Source: Nitrosomonas sp. (GTDB lineage Bacteria; Pseudomonadota; Gammaproteobacteria; Burkholderiales; Nitrosomonadaceae). From it: a stretch of 59,399 nucleotides of DNA. The stretch lies in contig JAJSDU010000015.1 of assembly GCA_028577615.1 (NCBI GenBank), positions 1 through 59,399 of the forward strand. Reading direction: 5' to 3'. Positions 39,841-46,256 of this stretch are shown here, piece by piece; position 1 is the first letter of the stretch, and the number at the start of each line of letters is the position of its first letter. The notes beneath the pieces were generated by a model. The model searched no databases and was not told the origin of the DNA. It was given only the letters and a program-made list of their open reading frames with translations. Made by a program: the position numbers and the translations under genes.

Positions 39841-40524
39841 ATGAATATATTGATCGTGGAAGATAATCAGGATATTGCAGCCAGTATTTATGACTATCTT
39901 GAAACCCTTGGCTACACGATTGATGCTGCACGTGATGGCTTGACAGGATTGCATCTGGCCCTTACCAAAGACTATGACGTCATCATTCTCGATCTGGGAT
40001 TGCCGGGCATTGACGGTACAGATCTCTGCCGCAGGCTCCGGCAGGAGGCGAAGCGGGCAATTCCGGTGATCATGCTGACCGCCAGGGATTCTCTCGAAAA
40101 CAAACTGGAAGGTTTTAAATCCGGCGCTGATGACTATCTCATCAAACCGTTCGCACTAAAAGAACTGGCGGCGCGCGTTAAAGCATTATCAGAGCGCATC
40201 AGGCGCATACCGTCGTCACAATTGCAAATTGGTGATCTCACGCTCAACATGGAAACACATGACGTGCATCGCGCGGGAAAGCACATCAGTCTCAACCCCA
40301 TGCTCTTTCGATTACTGACCTATCTGATGCAGAATCCGCATCGCGTGATCAAACGGGAAGAACTGGAATATGCTGTCTGGCAGGATCATCCACCCGACAG
40401 CGATGCACTGCGCACACATTTGTCGAATCTCCGCCAGGCCGTTGACAAGCCTTTTGATCAACCTTTGATACTCACTATACGCGGCTTCGGTTATAAATTA
40501 ACTGACAACAATGCAAAGAACTAA
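39841..40524 (+). CDS. OmpR-family response regulator
   Basis: A 227-residue regulator. Receiver: acidic pair VEDNQ, phospho-acceptor Asp51 in VIILDLGLPG, VIMLTARDSLENKLEGFKSGADDYLIKPF with conserved Thr and Lys. Winged helix: NPMLFRLLTYLMQNPHRVIKREELEYAVW and RTHLSNLRQAVDKPF. The start at 39841 is where homology begins. Its last codons overlap the kinase start by 14 bases, so the pair is coupled. The regulated genes are unknown; the secreted-protein cluster 500 bases downstream is a candidate. Confidence 0.9.
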   Translation: MNILIVEDNQDIAASIYDYLETLGYTIDAARDGLTGLHLALTKDYDVIILDLGLPGIDGTDLCRRLRQEAKRAIPVIMLTARDSLENKLEGFKSGADDYLIKPFALKELAARVKALSERIRRIPSSQLQIGDLTLNMETHDVHRAGKHISLNPMLFRLLTYLMQNPHRVIKREELEYAVWQDHPPDSDALRTHLSNLRQAVDKPFDQPLILTIRGFGYKLTDNNAKN

Positions 40525-41794
40525 GCGCCTGCGAAGACGCATCACACTTGCGTTTCTGCTGTTTGGTGTTTTTCTGGCGCTCACGCTCGGTATCAGTCTG
40601 GTTGCGGCGCTGAAATCCGTTGAAACGGAAATACTCGATGACATCCTCAGAATCGAGCTGGCAGCATTGCAGAAACAAGCCGGGAGCACAGCGCATATTC
40701 CAGTCACTTCTCGATCACGCTCAACCATCATCACTTATACCGCCCCGCTTTCTGAGCAGCATCAATTGCCGGAGCATGTACGCAGCCTCCCCCAGGGAAC
40801 CCACGATATCATGTTCAACAACCGGGATTATCGCGTTCTGATTCAGCATGTCAATGACACAAGGTATGTCGTGCAATTCGATGACACGAGCATCCACAGG
40901 CGTGAAAATGATTTCGTCCGCCTTGTCTGGCTATACGTCACTTTGACCCTGGTCATCGCGTTGGTCATCGGCTGGGCGGTAGCCGAGCATGTCATCAGTC
41001 CGATAAAGCGTCTTGCCTATCAGGTTATGGCGTTCAAAAATCAACCGGGCGAGGCGCTCAATTTATCCGAGTTCGGTGATGATGAAATAGGCGTACTGGC
41101 GCGCAAACTGAAACATTATCACGAACAGCTGCAATACTTGCTGATTCGCGAAAAAGAGTTTGCCAGCAATGTAAGTCATGAATTGCGCACACCCGTGACC
41201 AGCATCAGCATGGCCGCTGAAGTATTGGCAGCGAAAGCCGATCCCTCCACGCCGGAATACGCCCGGATTCAGCGCATTCAGCGCGCCGCAGACGAAATGT
41301 CTGAACTGATCGAGACTTTTCTGATACTGGCCCAGATCAATCACGCATCCACGCACAGCAGCACAGTCTGCGCCATGGAGCCGATCGTACGCAAGGTGAT
41401 TGAACAACAACGCGTCTGGCTGGCCGACAAACCGGTCAAAGTAAGCATTACGGTAAGCGGCCAGCTGGAAGTTGCCGCGCATGCGGGGATACTCAGCGTA
41501 CTGGTAGCCAATCTGGTACGCAACGCATTCCGCCACACGAATAAAGGCGCGATCACAATAGCGCTGTTACCTGACCGGCTGTCGGTCAGCGATACCGGCA
41601 CCGGTATTGATCAGACCATACAGACACAATTATTCAAAAATCATATTACGCACAAATCGGGCGACAGCAGCAGAATCGGACTGGGTTTGACCATTGTTCA
41701 GCGGATCTGCGAGCGTTATGGCTGGAAGGTATTTTTTGAAAGTGAAAAAGATCAGGGATCCCGCTTTACCGTGCTGTTTCATCCGCATCCGTGA
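40511..41794 (+). CDS. sensor histidine kinase
   Basis: A 427-residue membrane kinase with helices at about residues 11-32 and 138-160, and a periplasmic sensor of about 105 residues between. HAMP follows (VISPIKRLAYQVMAFKNQPG). HisKA: ASNVSHELRTPVTSISMAAEVLAAKA, phospho-acceptor His223. ATPase boxes VANLVRNAFRHTNKG, VSDTGTGID and IGLGLTIVQRICERYGW are intact. The periplasmic part has no recognisable ligand motif. Confidence 0.9.
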   Translation: MQRTKRLRRRITLAFLLFGVFLALTLGISLVAALKSVETEILDDILRIELAALQKQAGSTAHIPVTSRSRSTIITYTAPLSEQHQLPEHVRSLPQGTHDIMFNNRDYRVLIQHVNDTRYVVQFDDTSIHRRENDFVRLVWLYVTLTLVIALVIGWAVAEHVISPIKRLAYQVMAFKNQPGEALNLSEFGDDEIGVLARKLKHYHEQLQYLLIREKEFASNVSHELRTPVTSISMAAEVLAAKADPSTPEYARIQRIQRAADEMSELIETFLILAQINHASTHSSTVCAMEPIVRKVIEQQRVWLADKPVKVSITVSGQLEVAAHAGILSVLVANLVRNAFRHTNKGAITIALLPDRLSVSDTGTGIDQTIQTQLFKNHITHKSGDSSRIGLGLTIVQRICERYGWKVFFESEKDQGSRFTVLFHPHP

Positions 41795-42278
41795 TTATTC
41801 CGCGCGTTCCGCAGCAGAAATCGCCGTGTAAAACCCTTCTTGCTTAGCTACCTGTATCAGAAACTCTCAATTTGCTCAGTGGCAACGGCGCGCAGCAATC
41901 GCGGCGTCTGGCAGCCGAACAGCGGAAATCCACATACTGCCTTTTCCACCGGCTGCAGGGCGAACGCCCGTATGTTGAAAACGCATACCATCATGGGGTG
42001 GCAAGCGACGGGAACAATGGACGGATATCATTTGGATGATGTCTTTTTATCAATACAGAAATACCGCTTTATTGCCTGGCGAACACCGCTATACAAACCG
42101 CATCTCATCAGCTTGACATCGATTCAAACAGAATGTTCCAATTGCAGCTGATGCAAATACCGCCGGATTTATGGTGAACGCGGATACTACAGACAAAACG
42201 CATCGAATGACCGGTCACCAGTTGTATGGCATACAAACAGCCAATTTTTAATCCACGCCACGTAATAAGGGAGGCACC
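41795..42278 (+). other. gene-free spacer upstream of the secreted-protein cluster
   Basis: A 484-base spacer with no convincing gene; a 103-codon frame at 41840-42151 has no family features. TTGACA at 42113-42118 is a perfect -35 hexamer but no good -10 follows. GGGAGG at 42269-42274 is a strong ribosome-binding site for the next gene. Confidence 0.45.
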
Positions 42279-43160
42279 ATGAAACACTGTATCAAATCCA
42301 TCACCTCAACAGCATGCCTGCTGGTTCTGTTATTCAGCTTCAATCCGGCTACCGCGGCGACAACCCCGCAGATTGAAACGTTGTTCAACTGGGCGGAAAA
42401 TACTTTTCCCGATCTGTTTCCAGATCATCAGATCACCCAGACGGTCGATCCCTGGGCATTTCGTTTTTATCCGGCTACCGGCATTTACGCGGGCGTGAAG
42501 AATGACGAAGTTTTCGTGCTGGGCGGACCGTGGGGAACGGAAAATCCAACATTCATCGACACACTGCCGAGCCTGCTCGCGCAGATACAAGGCAGCGGCG
42601 GCAACGGCAGCGTCCCGGCATGCAGCGATACAGCAACGATTCCTGAAGGCATGGTCATCACCCAAAGCGGTAATGTGGTCAATATCACCACCAACGGACA
42701 GTGTCTTGTCGTTTCCAATCCCGGAAACACCAATTTCTGCGAACCGCCCGCACCGTCGCAACCGACCGGCATTTCCATCCTGAGCACCAACACTGTCAGT
42801 TCATTCCAGACCACCGGCATTACGCTCAATCTGCCGCCGAATCTTCCCAATCCGCTGGATGCCTTTGCGCAGAATACGTCAACCTGCATCATCAATGCTC
42901 AGGAAGCGTTAACCAGTCAGGTGGTGAACAGCAATATCTGTCTCGACATCACCAATCAGCTTTCACAGCTGTCCGGCTTTCCGGGCGTAACCATCAGCCC
43001 GCCGGTTACCATCACAACTGTCACGTCAAGCACCAACCAGCGCGTAGCGGATTGCTTCGCCACCAGCGCGGCATTTATCACCGATATATTCAGCGGCGAA
43101 TCGTGGGTGAACGTCAATGGCAGTTTTGTACCCGCCTCGAGCGTGGGTTCCGGTTTCTGA
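42279..43160 (+). CDS. secreted protein with shared A domain and six-cysteine B domain, unknown function
   Basis: A 293-residue exported protein (signal TACLLVLLFSFNPATA). Domain A, about residues 30-105, reads LFNWAENTFPDLFPDHQ, FRFYPATGIYAGVK and VFVLGGPWG. A Gly/Ser linker follows. Domain B, about 113-290, holds six Cys in the contexts ACSD, QCLV, FCEP, TCII, ICLD and DCFA, likely three disulfides. The gene at 44764 has the same A and B domains with all six Cys in order. Domain A resembles a short motif block (FPxHQ, YRxYPxTxxYxGV, VYVxG) seen in many betaproteobacterial exported proteins; I cannot give it a function. It has its own strong ribosome-binding site. Confidence 0.8.
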   Translation: MKHCIKSITSTACLLVLLFSFNPATAATTPQIETLFNWAENTFPDLFPDHQITQTVDPWAFRFYPATGIYAGVKNDEVFVLGGPWGTENPTFIDTLPSLLAQIQGSGGNGSVPACSDTATIPEGMVITQSGNVVNITTNGQCLVVSNPGNTNFCEPPAPSQPTGISILSTNTVSSFQTTGITLNLPPNLPNPLDAFAQNTSTCIINAQEALTSQVVNSNICLDITNQLSQLSGFPGVTISPPVTITTVTSSTNQRVADCFATSAAFITDIFSGESWVNVNGSFVPASSVGSGF

Positions 43161-43206
43161 TACCAGCGGTCGAACGTAACAAAAACAGCAATCTGACAGC
43201 GCAATA

Positions 43207-43235
43207 CGTTGAGGGTTATTTATGAACCCTCAACG
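43207..43235 (+). terminator. hairpin after the first six-cysteine gene
   Basis: Perfect 11-bp stem CGTTGAGGGTT (43207-43217) with AACCCTCAACG (43225-43235), seven-base loop, then TTTCC. The T-run is short, so termination may be partial. Confidence 0.6.
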
Positions 43236-43346
43236 TTTCCAACCACAAATTCAGTCCGATTCACTACATAAGTAAAATATAATTGATAATGCCTATTTCT
43301 GGGCAGATCAAGACAGTCATTCCACTCAAAACTCTGGAGATACTTT

Positions 43347-44240
43347 ATGCCATTTTTTCTGTGCAATAAATTGTTGACCAACCTCGTACCAGCTTTCATC
43401 ACGATCATCCTCATGCTTTCCGCCATGACGATCCAGGCAGCAACTTATAACTCAAAAACTGGTGAATTGTCTTTGCCGCACTTGATTGATGGGTCTAAAA
43501 CACTCATGGATGTCGTTATAAAATTAAATGCAGACGGCACTTATGCCATCCAAAGCGCCACTGAATCAGCGTTACCCATGTTTTGCCCGGGTACATTCTC
43601 TGAAGCAACCTTTAATTTAATCAGACAGGCAAACGGCGCAGATGAAATCAATGCGCTATTAGGCTGCCGCTGGCAACAACAGCAAAAAACATTATTCGAA
43701 TTTGATGCGGATACCAAACAATCCAGCCATTCTTTATCATGGCTGGATTCAGCATGCCAAACACTATCGGTAGGCATAGAAGAAAAGACCGGTCGCGTCG
43801 AGTTTTCGTCGCTCAGTAAAAATAATGCGGGCTGCGATATTTTTAGCACACTCTATCCGTATGATTTAAGGAAAAGAATATTAAGCCTGCAATATGTGAA
43901 AATTGATGATACTGCTATTGCTACAGAAGTTTATATAAAGTTTTACACGCTTAATGGTATAAACCGCTATGAGCTGGTTAGTTATGAAATCACGCCGAAC
44001 ACCACTCCTCCAGCTGTATGCAAACTCATTACAGAAGCAGCCTACAATGCGATATCAACATCAATGACGCCTAATGAGATCAGTAATTTATTAGGCTGTC
44101 AGTGGATGACAGAAAGTGTTTCAGATCCAGATCACGGTGAAACTTACTATCAATGGAAAGACCACGAATGGAATAGCATAGATTTTAGCAATGGAAGCAA
44201 ATCTTTTTGGCAATTCAGGATCGGAAGAACTCCAAACTAA
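43347..44240 (+). CDS. secreted protein with two BLIP/SmpA-like repeats
   Basis: A 297-residue exported protein (signal PAFITIILMLSAMTIQA). The mature start, ATYNSKTGELSLPHLIDG ... VVIKLNADGTYAI, is a beta unit found at the front of other exported betaproteobacterial proteins. Two copies of a Cys-spaced unit follow: Cys80 to Cys107 (CPGTFSEATFNLI to EINALLGCRW) and Cys225 to Cys251 (CKLITEAAYNAI to EISNLLGCQW). This resembles tandem repeats of the beta-lactamase-inhibitor / SmpA fold. The function is unknown; binding of a partner protein is a reasonable inference. Coding DNA is richer in A and T than the gene before. Confidence 0.75.
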   Translation: MPFFLCNKLLTNLVPAFITIILMLSAMTIQAATYNSKTGELSLPHLIDGSKTLMDVVIKLNADGTYAIQSATESALPMFCPGTFSEATFNLIRQANGADEINALLGCRWQQQQKTLFEFDADTKQSSHSLSWLDSACQTLSVGIEEKTGRVEFSSLSKNNAGCDIFSTLYPYDLRKRILSLQYVKIDDTAIATEVYIKFYTLNGINRYELVSYEITPNTTPPAVCKLITEAAYNAISTSMTPNEISNLLGCQWMTESVSDPDHGETYYQWKDHEWNSIDFSNGSKSFWQFRIGRTPN

Positions 44241-44267
44241 ACCATACACACTGAGGAGACTGAGTAA

Positions 44268-44699
44268 GTGAACATTAAGATATTCATTATGATAGTCGCT
44301 GTCTGGCTAGCTTCATTTCTCGCCCAGCCCGTTTTAGCCGCAGAACCCACAGCAGCCGAAATGAAAGACGCGCTTTTGCAAACGATGCAGAATCAGGGAG
44401 GATCACGATCCGGCGACGATTCTGTTTCAGTGGACAATTCCATTAGCGGCGCATCGATTTATATCAAACATTTTGAGAAAATTGGTTGCGAAAAAGCCTC
44501 CAATCGCCCCGGTTATTACTGCGACTATGAAATATCAGCAGGAATGGATTTCCATTCCAATGAAGGAACTGCCGCCGGAGATAGACACGCAGCGGGAATC
44601 AATGCGCTGTTTAATGCGCTCATGCCGCAAAATCAAATTTCCAACGAAACAAGGCGTTTCGTACGCTCCAATTCAGGCTGGAAGGTACTGCAAGATTAA
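44268..44699 (+). CDS. small secreted protein of unknown function
   Basis: A 143-residue exported protein (signal IFIMIVAVWLASFLAQPVLA). The mature part begins with a helix (TAAEMKDALLQTMQNQGG) and has two Cys, in GCEKASNRPGYYCDYEIS, likely a disulfide, then a beta strand ending SNSGWKVLQD. It starts with GTG at 44268 after GAGGAGACTGAG, a clear ribosome-binding site, 27 bases after the preceding gene, so the two are probably cotranscribed. No family recognised. Confidence 0.75.
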   Translation: MNIKIFIMIVAVWLASFLAQPVLAAEPTAAEMKDALLQTMQNQGGSRSGDDSVSVDNSISGASIYIKHFEKIGCEKASNRPGYYCDYEISAGMDFHSNEGTAAGDRHAAGINALFNALMPQNQISNETRRFVRSNSGWKVLQD

Positions 44700-44763
44700 C
44701 AGATTCATCAAGTACTTTTTATGGTGAATGAATTCACCTTGTATTGAAAATTTAATTTACTAC

Positions 44764-46050
44764 ATGAGAAAAATAATGAAAAACGAATTCATACTGAATA
44801 AGCATAATAATCAAGTTGCATGGATTATAGGCTGGATAGTATTAATAACATTAATTATTTGTACAGAATCAGCATATGCCATTACTTTGGTAAAATCCGA
44901 TCCAGCGGGAGGTACAGGTGGACGTCGTAGTATAGTGTCCACGCCCCCCGCACAAATACAACTCTGGTTTTCCGAGAATGTTAATCAAGCCAATATTTCG
45001 CTATCTGTCTATGCCGAAGATGGTAGTCTGGTTACCGACGCAACACCTCAAGTTACCGCAAACGATCCCACCTCGATAATAGTGCCGTTACCCGCGTTAA
45101 CCGCCGGATTGTATACCGTGGAATATTACGTAACGTCGACAAGCGGGCAAAGCATCAACTCTGAGTATACATTCAGAGTAAAAGAGGAAGAGAATTCCTC
45201 TCCTGTAATAAGCACGCAAACACTGATCGATACAGAAACCCTGCTTAATTGGGCCGAAAACACCTATGCAGAGTTTTTTCCTGATCATCAGATTACGCAA
45301 AATATCGAACCCTGGTTGTTTCGCCATTATCCGCAAACAAATATTTATGCGGGCGTCAATACCAATGATAACAATGTTTATGTGCTTGGCGGGCCGTGGG
45401 GCAATAACCCCGCTTTTATTGACACCCTTTCCAATCTGTCAGCTCTGATTGCCAACTCGAATAATAATAATAACGGGAACGGAAACAATAGTAATAACCG
45501 CACGCCTACCTGCGATACCACCAATGCGCCTGCCGGTTTACTTTACACCCAGAATAGCACTATTGTGAACGTTACAACTAATGGAGAATGTATTCCATTG
45601 CCCGAGAATACTAATCTATGCCCAATACCACAACAGACTTCGGCTACGGGTATTTCTTTGATAACTTTTTACACAGCTACTTCATCAGTAATCAAAGGAG
45701 TAGAGAATCCTTTTTATCCAGCTATGAGTGCAAGTGCCTTTACTCCGACGCGCGAGATACTTGAAGCACAGTATTGCACTATTAATGCACCGGAAGAGAC
45801 AGTCAGTCTCATTGTAAATGCTGATTTTTGTTATGACATGACGGCAGAAATTAATGAATCAACACTTCCCATAATGCGAGGTACAACTACAATCAATCCG
45901 CCAGTGACTTTTGCCACCAAAGGCGTTTTCAAGACCGTAGTATCTCAGCGCGATTGTTTTGCTAGCGGAGCAACGATCATTACCGATGCGGCCACGGGGG
46001 AAATGTGGAAACGTCAAGAAGATGACAGTTATATCAAAGTAAGCAATTAA
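44764..46050 (+). CDS. secreted protein: CopC-like domain, A domain, six-cysteine B domain
   Basis: An exported protein of 428 residues (signal VAWIIGWIVLITLIICTESAYA). The first mature domain, ITLVKSDPAGG ... PAQIQLWFSENVNQANISLSVYAEDGSLV ... GLYTVEYYVTSTSGQ, has the CopC/YcnJ-like Ig fold but lacks the N-terminal His that ligates copper. Domain A follows (LLNWAENTYAEFFPDHQ, FRHYPQTNIYAGV, VYVLGGPWG), then an Asn-rich linker, then domain B with six Cys (TCDT, ECIP, LCPI, YCTI, FCYD, DCFA) matching the paralogue at 42279. The start is uncertain: ATGs at 44728, 44764 and 44776 are in frame and none has a strong ribosome-binding site. Confidence 0.78.
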   Translation: MRKIMKNEFILNKHNNQVAWIIGWIVLITLIICTESAYAITLVKSDPAGGTGGRRSIVSTPPAQIQLWFSENVNQANISLSVYAEDGSLVTDATPQVTANDPTSIIVPLPALTAGLYTVEYYVTSTSGQSINSEYTFRVKEEENSSPVISTQTLIDTETLLNWAENTYAEFFPDHQITQNIEPWLFRHYPQTNIYAGVNTNDNNVYVLGGPWGNNPAFIDTLSNLSALIANSNNNNNGNGNNSNNRTPTCDTTNAPAGLLYTQNSTIVNVTTNGECIPLPENTNLCPIPQQTSATGISLITFYTATSSVIKGVENPFYPAMSASAFTPTREILEAQYCTINAPEETVSLIVNADFCYDMTAEINESTLPIMRGTTTINPPVTFATKGVFKTVVSQRDCFASGATIITDAATGEMWKRQEDDSYIKVSN

Positions 46051-46171
46051 TTCAGTCTTCTTTGCATTTTATGAAAATTTTTCCGTTCATAAAGAGCACG
46101 CTCCTGCTGATTTTTTGTAAGGCAAATAGTGTGGCGAAACATCATCCACTAGACGCATTCAATCATGCATT

Positions 46172-46206
46172 GGTAGGTGGGTGGCGCTTTACTTGCCCAC
46201 CCTACC
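46172..46206 (+). repeat. palindromic REP-like element
   Basis: GGTAGGTGGG (46172-46181) pairs with CCCACCCTACC (46196-46206) with one bulged base, around a 14-base loop. Elements of the form GTAGGTGGG-N-CCCACCCTAC recur in proteobacterial genomes as intergenic palindromes. It lies between the CopC-like gene and the convergent mscS gene. Confidence 0.6.
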
Positions 46207-46256
46207 AGGTCAATGTAGCCTGTTATCAGCCAAAAAGTATTTAACTGAGGACATCC

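Follow-up and report, generated by a model that had tools for sequence, protein, structure and literature searches.

The window analyzed here is a 59,399-nucleotide (nt) stretch of the genome of Nitrosomonas sp. (contig JAJSDU010000015.1 of assembly GCA_028577615.1; 58 contigs, 2.6 Mb, 90.5% complete), and the subject of this report is a row of four genes, P1 to P4, located between positions 42279 and 46050 on the same strand. All four reading frames proved to be open over the coordinates given below. P1 and P4 were both revealed to consist of a domain A followed by a domain B carrying six invariant Cys residues, an arrangement that defines what we call the A-B family, and P4 additionally carries a CopC-like domain. 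P3 starts with GTG, an alternative start of P4 is possible at the in-frame upstream ATG at 44728, and the intergenic gaps between P2 and P3 and between P3 and P4 are 27 and 64 nt, respectively.

42279..43160, + strand: P1, protein of domains A and B, 293 amino acids (aa) (own-genome match; orthologues in named Nitrosomonas genomes)
42366..42614, + strand: domain A of P1, mobile module without conserved Cys (alignment A2; found on other proteins)
42615..43157, + strand: domain B of P1 with six invariant Cys (alignment A3)
43347..44240, + strand: P2, two Cys-containing repeats, weakly BLIP-like
44268..44699, + strand: P3, small two-Cys protein (no Pfam/NCBIfam match)
44764..46050, + strand: P4, fusion of a CopC-like domain with domains A and B, 428 aa
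44887..45180, + strand: CopC-like domain of P4 without copper ligands (PF04234, residues 42–139; alignment with the genome's own CopC)
45202..45456, + strand: domain A of P4 (alignment A2)
45505..46047, + strand: domain B of P4 with six Cys (alignment A3)

The common architecture of P1 and P4, which a preliminary description of this DNA had already pointed out, was borne out by an own-genome match in which the two proteins were homologous over A and B with 46% identity (E 9.8e-54), a likeness far above chance level. Domain A (~80 aa) contains no conserved Cys, and domain B (~180 aa) holds all six, which were present without exception in all 39 rows of the domain B alignment; in an initial set comprising 42 sequences, each of the six columns had Cys in 41, and that set includes both halves of the split gene L011. 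This gene (L011:7995-8874) is the P1 orthologue of Nitrosomonas sp. Nm51 and is split over two overlapping frames. Neither an invariant His nor an invariant Met was found in domain B, the best His column reaching 27 of 39 rows (in domain A, one His column reached 26 of 29). The N-termini of all four proteins, judged by eye, showed a basic and hydrophobic stretch followed by an AxA-like site, in agreement with the signal peptides assigned to them earlier. The A-B family is probably exported. No anchoring signal or sorting tail was seen by eye in P1 and P4.

Residues 42–139 of P4 matched PF04234 (E 5.9e-14; 53.3 bits against a cut-off of 23.3), and the NCBIfam equivalog copper_CopC remained below threshold (43.9 bits against the 95 needed). 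According to a published study (PMC12362106), the Cu(II) ligands of CopC are His/Asp/His, and CopC occurs both alone and as fusions. In the alignment with the separate CopC of the same genome, the N-terminal His was gone from P4 and DGH was replaced by SGQ, so that the N-terminal His, the Asp, and the second His of the Cu(II) site are all missing, and the mature CopC stretch of P4 was found to contain 0 His, 0 Met, and 0 Cys. The proposed CopC-like domain devoid of its copper His was therefore confirmed. Among the matches listed for 125 genomes of the bacterial family, no second CopC-A-B fusion was found, leaving P4's genome as 1 of 125: the A-B matches to P4 started at residue 120 or later, and none of the CopC matches extended past residue 154 apart from that in G007 (to 179, with five internal stops). 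In the genomes of loci L003 to L007 (n = 5), A-B and CopC proteins were present separately, with no fusion.

A structure model of mature P1 built from 11 sequences gave a predicted local distance difference test (pLDDT) value of 80.6. In this model, domain A consisted of a helix, five strands, and a helix, and domain B was beta-rich with two long strands. A Foldseek search with the whole P1 model returned nothing at E ≤ 0.001 in the PDB or the viral library.

The distribution of the two domains differed in breadth. A search of the named genome collection with P1 returned Nitrosomonas records only (10 of 10 confirmed loci), and domain B was matched in 69 of 85 Nitrosomonas genomes, in a few of them as fragments at contig ends. 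In an order-wide sample of 399 genomes from 158 genera, domain B was detected in 9, all of them Nitrosomonas, with no occurrence outside the genus, and two sampled genomes of the genus were also without a match; domain B thus looks genus-restricted. No Pfam, NCBIfam, or PDB sequence was significantly related to domain B, which is consistent with the earlier statement that no known system matches. Meanwhile, a search of 369 genomes from the class returned domain A in 5, of which three belong to other genera. It occurred without domain B on RCC1 and PD40 propellers and on GH114, PhoX, and DUF3465 proteins, as the C-terminal part of a DUF4347 protein, and, below threshold, on an alpha/beta-hydrolase-like protein. 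Judged by these matches, domain A is an unnamed mobile module of exported proteins. The loci L105, L107, L110, and L111, from two other genera and from G074 (genus Nitrosomonas), carry domain A on a PD40 propeller, a PhoX phosphatase, a GH114 protein, and a DUF3465 protein. In addition, fusions of A-B with a C-terminal cytochrome c bearing CxxCH were observed in two genomes of the genus (L051:3944-5161, − strand; L052:3891-5096, + strand). PF00034 was above its cut-off in both of them, and they make up the A-B branch that diverges most in the tree described below.

In a tree of 55 rows, P1 grouped with its orthologues (9 rows including P1), and P4 was placed as sister to, not inside, a 22-row clade (support 99/92) that does not include P1. 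In the approximately unbiased (AU) test, the pairing of P1 with P4 was rejected (p-AU 1.5e-6), as was the placement of P4 with the clade of P1 (p-AU 0.019), and the grouping of P4 with a second A-B gene from the genome of L003, L115, was not rejected (p-AU 0.21). By the tree and the AU tests, P1 and P4 are thus ancient paralogues that belong to separate clades and came to lie side by side.

The genomic surroundings of these paralogues were compared by means of the following additional features.

43206..43236, + strand: 12-bp perfect hairpin 3' of P1, terminator-like, without a clear T run
43237..46213, + strand: ~3-kb block of P2, P3, and P4 with approximate boundaries, missing in L003, the nearest relative (blastn of the window against L003)
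44723-44738: hairpin resembling a terminator, located between P3 and P4 and overlapping the alternative P4 start at 44728
39841..41794, + strand: OmpR-type response regulator and histidine kinase, neighbors and at most putative members of the cluster

The nearest relative, L003, encodes a P1 that is 88% identical and keeps the neighbors both on the left (rluD-, bamD-, and usp-like genes, regulator, and kinase) and on the right (mscS- and nadC-like genes and onward), all names being given by eye, with the mscS-like gene directly after P1. The DNA alignment between the window and L003 breaks at 43215 and restarts at 46215; in L003, the two matched segments lie 18 nt apart. At the place of the P1 hairpin, L003 has a 10-bp stem in which two pairs differ, each on both sides, and this retained hairpin suggests that P1 is its own transcription unit; the terminator scan did not list the hairpin itself. 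P4 may in turn be transcribed apart from P2 and P3, given the terminator-like hairpin at 44723-44738. Promoter-like sites in the region numbered 7 against 8.7 expected. Across eight P1-type loci (L003–L009 and L011, with L008 and L009 being short contigs), no P2, P3, or CopC-A-B gene was found in the stretch read; L010 and L012 are not counted here, as they fall into the sister clade of P4.

P2 was shown to contain two repeats with common C, G-C, and W positions, which upholds the repeat structure of the earlier description; its likeness to BLIP stayed below threshold, with E 0.057 for the best BLIP entry of the PDB and E 0.024 for the BLIP family of Pfam in 1 of the 7 rows, and the SmpA/BamE family, also proposed for it, was not listed in the Pfam search of the P2 rows. 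The structure model of P2 was unusable (pLDDT 41). Matches to P2 were found in 5 of the 125 genomes of the bacterial family including its own, one of them near full length (L065, 56%), and no A-B gene was found near this relative within the 12 kb of L065. P3, correctly described as a small protein with two Cys, had no relative in the other 124 of the 125 genomes. The view that the parts of the cluster diverged from a common core thus holds for P1 and P4 only, neither P2 nor P3 having the A-B core.

The two-component pair noted earlier is indeed present at 39841..41794. It is separated from P1 by two genes of the opposite strand in L003 and L004. No such pair was found in the vicinity of P1 in L005 to L007, where the genes preceding the orthologue are a small one and one that, by eye, is mnmA-like. 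The small gene directly upstream of P1 was located at L005:7484-7921, L006:7483-7896, and L007:7447-7923 (all + strand) and was assigned to DUF4019 by Pfam for L005 only. The stretch between kinase and P1 (window 41794-42278) is ~2 kb shorter than in L003 and L004, in which these ~2 kb consist of universal-stress-like and SulP-like transporter genes (by eye or weak BLAST).

A different context emerged for the relatives of P4. In 17 of the 22 rows of its sister clade, a gene for a TonB-dependent receptor lies upstream on the same strand, mostly with a YfiR gene in between, and such a receptor was found upstream in 0 of the other 31 rows scored; both families were named by Pfam for L076 and by BLAST elsewhere. 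This linkage corresponds to two changes on the tree. Directly upstream of P4, neither a TonB receptor nor YfiR is encoded, P3 and P2 being located there instead. A genome search aimed at YfiR alone had no match in P4's genome, and three other genomes matched.

In a set with longer flanks, comprising 42 loci of which 41 are distinct (L012 and L089 being on the same contig), 19 distinct loci were receptor-linked. The A-B gene was arranged tail-to-tail with an operon of an EGKCG precursor, an MNIO gene, and a DUF2063 gene in 12 of these 19 as compared with 0 of the 22 others, counts in which the contig of L012/L089 stops 173 bases past the A-B gene and is uninformative, L133 offers 3 kb to judge by, and L125, counted as positive, has only part of the DUF2063 gene on its contig. 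The operon families (MNIO, PF05114; DUF2063) were assigned by Pfam for L076 only and by BLAST for the other loci. The twelve loci are L076:472-11718, L075, L079, L080, L083, L088, L123–L125, and L134–L136, not all of which have YfiR, and nine of them carry a TPR-response regulator and a small kinase between the A-B gene side and the peptide operon. An MNIO gene was also found away from A-B genes, at a distance of at least ~270 kb in G074 and on other contigs in G048 and in P4's genome. In a recent report (PMC12452194), EGKCG precursors form the Buf_EGKCG/oxazolin family, kept apart from bufferins proper, and oxazolin is described as a Cu(I) binder. The copper link, which draws on the CopC fusion and on the adjacent copper-peptide operons, is no more than suggestive.

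On these grounds, we propose that P1 and P4 are paralogous, disulfide-stabilized adaptor or binding proteins of the cell envelope and that P4 is a rewired orphan of a TonB-receptor system, a reading to which we assign a probability of roughly 0.45. After Sec export, the six Cys would form three disulfides, as suggested by their invariance together with the presumed export. Domain A would serve as a small alpha/beta adaptor through which the protein is positioned, either in the envelope or on a partner, and it may play a like role beside propeller, glycosidase, and phosphatase domains, whereas domain B would be the family-specific binding module. For the clade related to P4, the partner would most likely be the TonB-receptor/YfiR pair encoded just upstream, and the Ig-like, ligand-less CopC domain of P4 is probably a structural or docking extension and not a copper carrier. 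P1 is, by its position in the tree and its surroundings, a separate branch without receptor linkage. Several observations weigh against this proposal. The receptor linkage, with its two changes on the tree, is a clade trait (about one gain and one loss) and not repeated evidence, and 5 of the 22 sister-clade rows are without it, including one that has no more than 635 bases of upstream sequence. With the genome 90.5% complete, the lack of a YfiR match could reflect a gap in the assembly. Furthermore, 16 of the 85 genomes of the genus had no domain B match, the fold searches gave no usable relative (the VIA-align rows covered mainly residues 1–80, domain A), P4 sits on a long branch (0.55), and the groups compared in the AU tests were named after the tree was seen.

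The reading originally offered for the cluster, in which the four genes form a secreted or cell-surface system, here taken as strain-specific, newly assembled in this lineage, and controlled by the adjacent two-component pair, would suit the common strand, the 27- and 64-nt gaps across P2-P3-P4, and the export signals seen by eye. It is nevertheless hard to reconcile with the retained hairpin that sets P1 off, with the absence of the other genes from the eight P1-type loci, with the second hairpin splitting P3 from P4 and the unremarkable number of promoter-like sites, and with the lack of the two-component pair near P1 in L005 to L007; we regard it as quite improbable. The system idea, which its own proponents had tied to the four genes staying together in relatives, fails in that the P2-P3-P4 block is absent from L003 and that P2 and P3 occur in 5 and 1 of the 125 genomes, respectively. 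The four-gene system is not supported by these comparisons, in which the cluster is P1 followed by a strain-specific P2-P3-P4 block behind the P1 hairpin.

Two further explanations concern what A-B proteins do. If those of the P4 clade were the periplasmic part of copper handling, the receptor would import a chelate such as an oxazolin- or bufferin-like peptide, YfiR would sense it, and A-B would bind it or hand it on, with the CopC domain of P4 being a relic. The fusion of CopC to A-B in P4, the peptide operon adjoining only receptor-linked loci, and the copper binding reported for oxazolin in PMC12452194 all favor this explanation, which we nonetheless consider unlikely: the CopC domain has lost the ligands given in PMC12362106 and has no Met, no His or Met is invariant in domain B, the peptide operon runs convergently and hence is not co-transcribed, it adjoins A-B genes in only part of the tree, and the MNIO gene lies elsewhere in G074, G048, and P4's genome. 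The missing ligands and the convergent operon in particular disfavor a direct copper role of P4. Alternatively, the A-B proteins could be components of the extracellular matrix or surface, not receptor partners, with domain A serving as a cell-surface retention module. The occurrence of A in exported enzymes, in propeller proteins, and as the C-terminal part of a DUF4347 protein agrees with such a role, but P1 and P4 show no anchor or sorting tail by eye and the cytochrome c fusions better suit the periplasm, so that this, too, appears improbable.

The preferred reading, that of envelope adaptors with P4 as an orphan of a receptor system, can be extended into a bolder and very unlikely form: the A-B proteins of the P4 clade might be a new class of soluble envelope partners for TonB-receptor/YfiR systems that import or sense copper chelates (such as peptides of oxazolin or bufferin type) in ammonia oxidizers, and P4 might be a natural fusion in which the ligand-less CopC domain took over docking after loss of the receptor genes. 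Within the searches made, what is new is the six-Cys family together with the receptor context specific to one of its clades and the fusions to CopC and cytochrome c, and the analysis corrects the tempting reading of the cluster as a four-gene system. Ammonia oxidation relies on copper and iron enzymes of the envelope, and to our knowledge the import of these metals by Nitrosomonas is poorly defined. The A-B family, whose genes follow those for a TonB receptor and YfiR in one clade, often with a copper-peptide operon alongside, and which occurs fused to CopC and cytochrome c, represents a testable candidate part of the metal-import machinery, and its link to an operon for an outer-membrane receptor in the relatives provides a first testable clue to its function.

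Compared with known systems, the repeats of P2 resemble BLIP (beta-lactamase inhibitory protein, PF07467) only in a short sub-threshold match to profile positions 7–30, and a BLIP function is not transferable from a match that is not significant. EGKCG/oxazolin-type operons, which encode ribosomally synthesized and post-translationally modified peptides, lie tail-to-tail with receptor-linked A-B genes in the 12 loci, but on the opposite strand, and the MNIO gene of P4's genome is on another contig. Pairs of a TonB receptor and a YfiR/HmsC-like protein (PF13689) usually precede the genes of P4's sister clade, whereas neither gene adjoins P4 and no YfiR match was found in its genome. Finally, like CopC proteins, including fusions such as YcnJ, P4 exceeds the Pfam cut-off for CopC; it differs from these in having no Cu(II) ligands, no Met, and no CopD domain, and in joining CopC to two previously undescribed partner domains, A and B.

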